DNA of 34,319 nucleotides from Candidatus Woesearchaeota archaeon (lineage in GTDB: Archaea > Nanobdellota > Nanobdellia > Woesearchaeales > GW2011-AR15). Shown here piece by piece: positions 1,844-28,564 of the stretch. Position 1 is the stretch's first letter; each line of letters opens with the position of its first letter. The notes under the pieces were generated by a model. The model was not told where the DNA came from. It worked only from the letters and a program-made list of their open reading frames with translations, and did not search any database. The DNA is taken from the NCBI GenBank assembly GCA_016935095.1, contig JAFGRO010000071.1, forward strand, positions 1 to 34,319, written 5' to 3'. Both the position numbers and the translations under genes were made by a program.

Positions 1844-1923
1844 GCTAATATGTGTTTTTAATTAATCAATAAAATTTTTTAGACTTAGAGAAATAAAATA
1901 CAAATTTAATTGAAATTTATTTT

Positions 1924-2066
1924 CAGGCTTGGAGAGATTGGATAATTGCTCCTTAACATTAAACTTGATGTTCCCCAAGCGCTCCTTGCGATTAAATAAG
2001 TGCAGGGAGCTATTGAGGGACGTTTACAATCACATCAAGAGCAACAAGCACTGTCCCTCAATTACT
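1924..2066 (+). ncRNA. Three-hairpin structured RNA, copy 1
   Basis: No coding frame is kept among copies, but structure is. Hairpin 1: GCTTGG 1927-1932 with CCAAGC 1975-1980. Hairpin 2: GCTCCTTGC 1981-1989 with GCAGGGAGC 2002-2010 (9 bp, one G-U). Hairpin 3: ATTGAGGGAC 2012-2021 with GTCCCTCAAT 2053-2062 (10 bp). Hairpins 1 and 2 abut with no gap, and 2 and 3 are separated by one base, so they could stack. The loop of hairpin 1 (TTGCTC, 1946-1951) complements the loop of hairpin 3 (GAGCAA, 2039-2044), a likely kissing contact. A 24-nt block (1959-1982) is identical to copy 2 (11766-11789). It lies between the SPFH promoter and the gene at 2218. Transcription on the plus strand is assumed from the G-U pairs; no strong TATA box is seen. 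Function unknown. Confidence 0.75.
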
Positions 2067-2165
2067 AAAAAATATAATAAATAAAAAAAGAAATTATTAA
2101 AAGAAAATCAATTAAAAAATAAATTCAATTACCTCATATGGCTTGACTTTGCTCTAAAAAAGCAA

Positions 2166-11664: not shown

Positions 11665-11732
11665 ATTTAGAATGGAATTAAATAATAATCAGGCTTAGGA
11701 ATAAGTGGGATTAGGTATTTATTTTTAATTTT

Positions 11733-11876
11733 CAGGCTTGGTGAGATTGGATATAGCTCTTCATGTTAAACTTGATGTTCCCCAAGCGCCCCTTGTAAAT
11801 ATTTATTCTAAGGGAGCTATTGAGGGACATCATGTTTTTACAGCAAGGGCAACAAGCGATATCCCTCGATTACTAA
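11733..11876 (+). ncRNA. Three-hairpin structured RNA, copy 2
   Basis: Same layout as copy 1. Hairpin 1: GCTTGG 11736-11741 with CCAAGC 11782-11787. Hairpin 2: CCCTT 11790-11794 with AAGGG 11810-11814, shorter than in copy 1. Hairpin 3: ATTGAGGGACATC 11819-11831 with GATATCCCTCGAT 11858-11870, twelve of thirteen positions paired, one of them U-G. Loop-loop contact: GCTCTT 11756-11761 with AAGGGC 11845-11850, 6 bp with one U-G, made of different bases from copy 1. It lies between a minus-strand promoter and the 3' end of nnrE. A short copy of its first bases (AGGCTTAGG) occurs at 11691-11699. Confidence 0.75.
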
Positions 11877-11941
11877 TTTTCAAAAAAATTAAAACTAAAA
11901 TATTATATAATCTCAAAAAATTAAAAAAGAAAGGATTAAAA

Positions 11942-28148: not shown

Positions 28149-28308
28149 AGAGATGAAGAGTTAATGAAAGTTTAAAAAGTTTGTTGAATATATCTTAATT
28201 TTACAGTATTGAATTTTCTTTGAAAAACATTTTTTATAAAATTAATTTTTAGGCTTGAAAATAATATAAATTAAATCATTAGAAAAAATAATTTTTTTAT
28301 AATAAATT

Positions 28309-28453
28309 AGGCTTGAGGAGATGCACTGGTTGCTCTTGATAAATAAGCAGGTGCTCCTCAAGGGCTCCTCTTAATTATAATATGTACAGGGAGCTAATGA
28401 GGGACATCATGTTTTTGCAGCGAGGGCATGAAGCTGTTCTCCCTCATTTATGA
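28309..28453 (+). ncRNA. Three-hairpin structured RNA, copy 3
   Basis: The most diverged copy, with the same plan. Hairpin 1: CTTGAGGAG 28312-28320 with CTCCTCAAG 28354-28362, nine perfect pairs, three longer than in copies 1 and 2 with new bases on both strands. Hairpin 2: GCTCCT 28364-28369 with GGGAGC 28389-28394. Hairpin 3: AATGAGGGA 28396-28404 with TCCCTCATT 28440-28448. Loop-loop contact: TGCTCTTG 28331-28338 with CGAGGGCA 28421-28428, 8 bp including two U-G. A 19-nt block (28398-28416) is identical to copy 2 (11821-11839). TATA-like AT-rich sequence lies upstream around 28261-28275. It lies between cmk and the gene at 28599. Confidence 0.75.
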
Positions 28454-28564
28454 AAAATATTAAAAAGATAATAAAAAAAATTAAATTCAACTCTCTCTCA
28501 ATTATAAAAAATCAAAAATAAAAAAAGGTATAATGCTAAAAAACTAAATAAAAATATCAAAACA

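Follow-up and report, generated by a model that had tools for sequence, protein, structure and literature searches.

The window analysed here, a stretch of 34,319 nucleotides, holds three related intergenic elements of about 140 nt. The sequence-only reading preferred to regard them as a new multi-copy RNA class or as a set of regulatory RNAs, and it also allowed for a mobile-like element. Which of these are they? The observations described below suggest that the elements very probably belong to a family of dispersed mobile DNA repeats that are palindromic and free of any transposase gene, like MITEs, REPINs and PATEs.

Sequence comparison shows that the three elements, each about 150 nt long, are real homologues. 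They were placed with a covariance model (R1) built from 32 copies of the family:

1920-2072, plus strand: family copy 1, a quasi-palindromic core element (alignment A1 and model R1, 165 bits)
11729-11880, plus strand: family copy 2 (R1, 151 bits)
28304-28458, plus strand: family copy 3, the most divergent of the three (R1, 110 bits)

The common plus-strand orientation had been remarked on and is true in the window, but it has little meaning, as both orientations relative to genes are found genome-wide. As the element is nearly palindromic, early nhmmer models merged both strands, and the orientation of the copies was then set by BLAST. The prediction that the genome would hold many more copies is borne out. 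In the window's own genome (G000; 1.77 Mb in 82 contigs), DNA search gives 40 matches, and the R1 search gives 42 copies of at least 100 bits together with about 14 fragments that are truncated or lie at contig ends, where the counts are approximate. Truncated copies are present on contigs C39, C43, C69, C8 and C54. The copies are spaced at about one per 40 kb and form no arrays; their pairwise identity ranges from 61 to 94% (median 74%), and their length is nearly constant. Only two of the 42 overlap an ORF of at least 90 aa, the others being intergenic. The family has no common ORF, its unit of about 150 bp being too short to encode a transposase, and none of the matches in the genome is an autonomous, transposase-carrying copy. 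Rfam gives no match for the element, in agreement with the earlier statement that no known motif explains it. Because numerous contig ends fall within copies, the fragmentation of the assembly is partly due to the family.

The structure of the element can be described in two ways, as three adjacent hairpins or as one long hairpin. The relevant features of copy 1 are:

1927-1980, plus strand: hairpin 1, the left arm; stem 1927-1936 / 1971-1980, paired in 91% of cells across 32 copies
1981-2010, plus strand: hairpin 2, the centre, directly abutting hairpin 1; 1981-1989 pairs with 2002-2010
2013-2061, plus strand: hairpin 3, the right arm; 2013-2021 pairs with 2053-2061 (folding and pair counts)
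1970-2021, plus strand: alternative central stem, GTTCCCCAA / TTGAGGGAC, in which 1970-1978 pairs with 2013-2021 (RNAalifold consensus and pair counts)
1946-1951, plus strand: UUGCUC, the 5' side of the reported loop-loop contact; in most copies it belongs to a stem nested within the long hairpin
2039-2044, plus strand: GAGCAA, the 3' side of the same contact, GGGCAA in most copies

The segment 1924-2066 folds better than all of 200 dinucleotide shuffles (z = -4.5), and in copy 1 folding confirms the three adjacent hairpins, the first two without a gap, at their proposed coordinates. The complementarity of the loops of hairpins 1 and 3 is also present. It does not hold, however, that all copies fold alike. 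The fold of lowest energy has three hairpins in only about 8 of 34 copies and consists of a single long imperfect hairpin in most others. The RNAalifold consensus is likewise not three hairpins but the central stem GTTCCCCAA / TTGAGGGAC around hairpin 2. This stem is the most conserved pairing of the family (98.8% of cells), whereas column 14 of hairpin 1 is unpaired in 14 of 32 copies. Once reverse-complemented, the right arm roughly reproduces the left, so that the reverse complements of most copies also score with R1, at roughly 22-59 bits. The element is thus a palindrome of palindromes, and the reported loop-loop contact is, for this reason, a nested stem of the long hairpin.

The family has a very narrow distribution. 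A search for homologues in related genomes covered 353 genomes of the order, including two of the same genus and seven of the same family. The element is absent from 351 other genomes, among them both same-genus and all seven same-family genomes. Besides the window's own genome, only G326, which is the same genome as G010, gives matches, and all of these lie on one 15-kb contig:

JAFGLI010000009.1: contig C16 of G010/G326, with S8e and TFB genes, in MAG Zod_Metabat.396 (Candidatus Woesearchaeota)

The gene for ribosomal protein S8e is missing from the window's genome and present twice in G326. The S8e on C16 is 73-80% identical to orthologues from the genus of the window's organism and 56% identical to the other copy in G326. 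Moreover, C16 shares ends of 83-87 bases with three contigs of the window's genome. By these gene and end comparisons C16 is most likely a misbinned piece of the window's organism. The family is therefore known from one species only, and a second carrier species (G326/G010) can be rejected. Phages and plasmids give no match to the family. In viral contigs a long pattern and one 18-nt pattern have no match, and the match of another 18-nt pattern to a single viral contig was not confirmed by the covariance model. An origin from a phage or plasmid is rejected on these grounds.

The sites occupied by the copies indicate that they behave as insertions. G008, a genome of the same genus, keeps the gene pair that flanks copy 1 in synteny (contig C122), with a short intergenic region that lacks the element; one such site was aligned. 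Another copy lies inside a DUF5654 gene:

C43:4400-4553 of the window's genome: family copy abutting coding DNA without the usual AT-rich flank
L116 4450-4779 (contig C43): DUF5654 ORF of 109 aa crossing the copy, its first 35 codons derived from the repeat

The Pfam match to DUF5654 (E 7e-10) begins at residue 36, the first codon after the element, and enters the profile at position 12 of 71. The copy has thus replaced the start of this gene. The resulting ORF is a pseudogene or, alternatively, a fusion whose start the element encodes.

The left end of the element at this site is TTTTTCAGG. Elsewhere, alignments of the flanks give blurred boundaries in AT-rich DNA. The outermost terminal inverted match is only TTTTYAG / CTAAAA, which is short and imperfect. 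No excess of flanking direct repeats was found at any offset in a test to which an invariant TA duplication is invisible; as no target-site duplication is detectable, the boundary is fixed only on the left and in one copy. A degenerate second left terminal motif lies 30-95 nt upstream of 15 of 46 copies (with at most three mismatches), compared with about 2% in shuffled sequences. Such outer motifs are seen in the window as well:

1876-1888, plus strand: outer left-motif repeat of copy 1, TTTTTAGACTTAG, with two mismatches to TTTTYAGGCTTGG, 31 nt upstream
28246-28258, plus strand: outer left motif of copy 3, TTTTTAGGCTTGA, one mismatch
28494-28510, plus strand: outer right motif of copy 3, TCTCTCAATTATAAAAA, one mismatch

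Relative to the neighbouring genes the orientation of the copies is unbiased: same/same in 11 cases, opposite/opposite in 9, opposite/same in 7 and same/opposite in 6. This bears on the possibility that the element acts in cis on transcripts, as a bidirectional terminator, a 3'-end protector or an RNase site kept between genes, comparable to REP, ERIC and Correia sequences. An intergenic location and strong hairpins that can be read on either strand would suit such a role, and MITE insertions are known to affect transcripts (PMC10969869). The copies, however, occur in all gene arrangements, including the seven divergent opposite/same sites, and the sister species does without the element at the same gene pair. 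A run of five T within 30 nt downstream on the plus strand is found in none of 35 copies, and a terminator function is rejected for lack of this U-run. A cis-acting transcript element is therefore very unlikely to be what the family represents, and an effect of the copies on transcripts would be secondary at best.

The copies are mosaics of one another. Variable sites up to about 6 nt apart are strongly linked, and past about 20 nt the linkage is no more than background, a decay equalled in none of 500 permutations. Short alleles are common to copies in changing combinations, a pattern suggesting that short segments are exchanged between copies, probably by gene conversion. Together with the conserved palindrome, this mosaic pattern, which suggests recombination at or between copies, might point to a site on the DNA at which a host protein acts in recombination, replication or chromosome folding, such as an attC-like site of an integron or a nucleoid site. 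The absence of arrays at a spacing of about one copy per 40 kb, the disruption of a gene by one copy and, unlike core chromosome sites, the absence from sister species speak against it, and this explanation is highly improbable.

A family of small or regulatory RNAs that fold into three hairpins and make a kissing-loop contact would be expected to leave its mark in covariation. A covariation test of all pairs, with a tree-based null, ranks neighbouring loop alleles highest and supports neither the helices nor the loop-loop contact. The other copies had been described as pairing at the contact with other bases. The contact is indeed paired in 94% of cases over 32 copies, but mostly by the same bases or by G-U, and none of its six pairs has changed on both sides. 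It is part of the palindrome and lacks significant covariation, and so is not supported as a conserved RNA feature. The RNAalifold consensus has two-sided changes in none of its 20 pairs, and the long-hairpin model shows no excess of such changes. For the three-hairpin model there is a weak excess, 6 pairs against 3.4 expected, which was reached by 5 of 500 shuffles and which, as the tool itself warns, the relatedness of copies alone can produce. Among mispairs on the plus strand, G-U (G-T in DNA) is far above A-C in five of six candidate helices. This excess hints that it is the plus strand, in the form of RNA or single-stranded DNA, that folds.

The strong folding of the segment, the weak two-sided excess and the mispair excess can all be cited for an RNA family. 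Against it stand the covariation, which is not convincing and largely undermines the RNA interpretation, the many copies without the three-hairpin fold, the missing downstream U-run, the random orientation relative to genes and the confinement to one species, without members in the rest of the genus. With copies that also look like insertions, the two RNA options preferred at first are unsupported, and an RNA family is quite unlikely.

The mobile-like option is, by contrast, supported. Many copies, their confinement to one species, an empty site in a related genome, a disrupted gene, random orientation relative to genes and a palindromic build together argue for a mobile repeat, and no host function is needed to explain the copies. 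A selected function would also fit the conserved stems next to variable loops, the nearly uniform length and the almost wholly intergenic sites of the copies. A family that is both mobile and functional can be imagined, in which a strand-specific transcript or single strand switches between the three-hairpin and one-hairpin forms and the pairing of the arms is a switch read by a protein; this combination is improbable.

If the family is a mobile repeat, its movement might proceed as follows. The unit is about 150 bp long, with two inverted arms, each able to form a hairpin (1 and 3), flanking the central hairpin 2. A single strand of it can adopt the form of three hairpins side by side or that of one long, imperfect hairpin. 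A transposase acting in trans would recognise the folded end or ends and copy or move the unit into AT-rich intergenic DNA. A single-strand route through an IS200/IS605-group transposase (HUH/Y1), the kind of route suggested for REPINs and PATEs, can be put forward tentatively; a DDE-type MITE route is possible, if doubtful. The former is somewhat more likely, as there are no detectable target duplications and the excess of G-T over A-C mispairs is on one strand.

The window's genome carries four Y1_Tnp genes, and the element ends have no recognisable copies at their loci. The Y1_Tnp gene on contig C76 has end hairpins of its own and a family copy 285 nt upstream. The leader of this IS200-type tnpA contains TCAGGCTTTGGG (L079 2525-2536), a 12-nt stretch that some copies have, letter for letter, at their left end; about 160 nt upstream of TCAGGCTTTGGG there is a full family copy. 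This match was noticed post hoc and is judged near chance, other parts of the end differ, and mobilisation by this tnpA is rejected. Nor does the presence of Y1_Tnp explain the presence of the family, for G008 has 13 Y1_Tnp matches and no element.

Some copies have themselves been invaded. An insert, whose length of 132 nt was assembled from overlapping contig ends, is found at the same place in the hairpin 2 loop on C71, at the end of C69, on C81, on C64 and at the end of C14. It is shortened at C14:59-262, and the beginning of C5 reads through most of it. The hairpin of the insert, GTGCGACATGCGC...GCTTAGTCCCAC, differs by 3 mismatches in 25 from a hairpin upstream of the IS200/IS605-type tnpA on C49 (the best of 200 shuffles has 7), and compensating changes preserve the stem. 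The insert thus shows, through the left flank of this tnpA, the IS605-like near-terminal palindrome typical of PATEs.

Related sequences occur elsewhere in the genome. In the window, a hairpin at 2729-2767 on the plus strand, GTGCGACATGCGCTC...GCTTAGTCCCAC, matches both the C49 tnpA-upstream hairpin and the 132-nt insert and is probably a decayed IS200/IS605-derived piece. It adjoins a tRNA-Gly(gcc) gene at 2773-2858 on the plus strand, which has a 14-nt intron (ARAGORN, introns allowed) and an intronless orthologue on C122 of G008. Just upstream of the hairpin is a partial tRNA-Gly-like start (GTGCGTCAGTAGTCT). A tRNA-like gene on C2 (L113 3140-3390), not recognised by ARAGORN, seems to have two extra segments, one of which holds an IS200/IS605-like hairpin, GTGCGACATGCACTCC...GGAGCCTAGTCCCAC; it may be a tRNA gene that has several introns or that was struck by an insertion. 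Finally, a different sequence, GATCGCCAAGAGTTCGTCAAGTCTGAAAGACTTGATGG..., is identical at several contig ends (L095 7081-7167; C65:1-86, C64:6640-6726 and C15:9957-10039 of the window's genome) and probably marks the terminus of yet another insertion sequence.

Comparison with known systems places the family among repeats of several kinds. REPINs are REP doublets that form hairpins (PMC3116915). Like them, the element has two inverted hairpin modules around a spacer that together make one long hairpin, and the copies are dispersed, almost only extragenic, species-specific and without coding capacity. The arms here, however, are about 50 nt with 30-nt loops instead of REPs of 16-40 bp, and there are about 42 copies rather than hundreds. 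The GTAG tag is absent at the module ends of the family consensus, and none of the four Y1_Tnp genes of the genome is a RAYT flanked by the repeat.

The PATEs and SMR-A of Haloquadratum walsbyi are small mobile repeats, among which nested insertion into palindromes is common (PMC3119063). The present family resembles them as an archaeal, transposase-free palindromic repeat with tens of copies, without detectable target duplications and with elements nested in the palindromes of others. In Haloquadratum it is an SMR that has entered a PATE; the palindrome of the present family has taken up an IS200/IS605-like piece. The ends of PATEs match IS605-type transposons, whereas the ends here match none found. 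MITEs of the ERIC, Correia and RUP type are also intergenic imperfect palindromes of 100-200 bp, mobilised, if at all, in trans (PMC10969869), ERIC being nearest in size and symmetry. No sequence relation to them has been shown; the present family has short, imperfect terminal repeats, and the search for target duplications gave none. The SM1-SM4 MITEs of Sulfolobus have 25-44 copies per genome (PMC10969869). In copy number and archaeal host they are like the family described here. The Sulfolobus elements have known parent insertion sequences, whereas none is known here.

The family may thus be said to work like REPINs, ERIC/Correia MITEs and PATEs/SMR-A. It does not count as a REPIN or PATE proper, as it has no GTAG tag, no repeat-flanked RAYT and no IS605-like ends. 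In the literature searched, no palindromic mobile repeat family from Woesearchaeota was found; the family is new, and the class of mechanism (MITE/REPIN/PATE-like) is already known.

These results carry a caution: a strong fold and many copies in one genome are not evidence for an RNA class. The family explains many of the assembly breaks, and it also aided the recognition of a contig wrongly assigned to another bin. For the organism itself, the results show a repeat family that has spread and recombines within a 1.8-Mb DPANN genome. A second, IS200/IS605-like repeat sits inside its hairpin loop, a nesting that parallels the nested small repeats of Haloquadratum.
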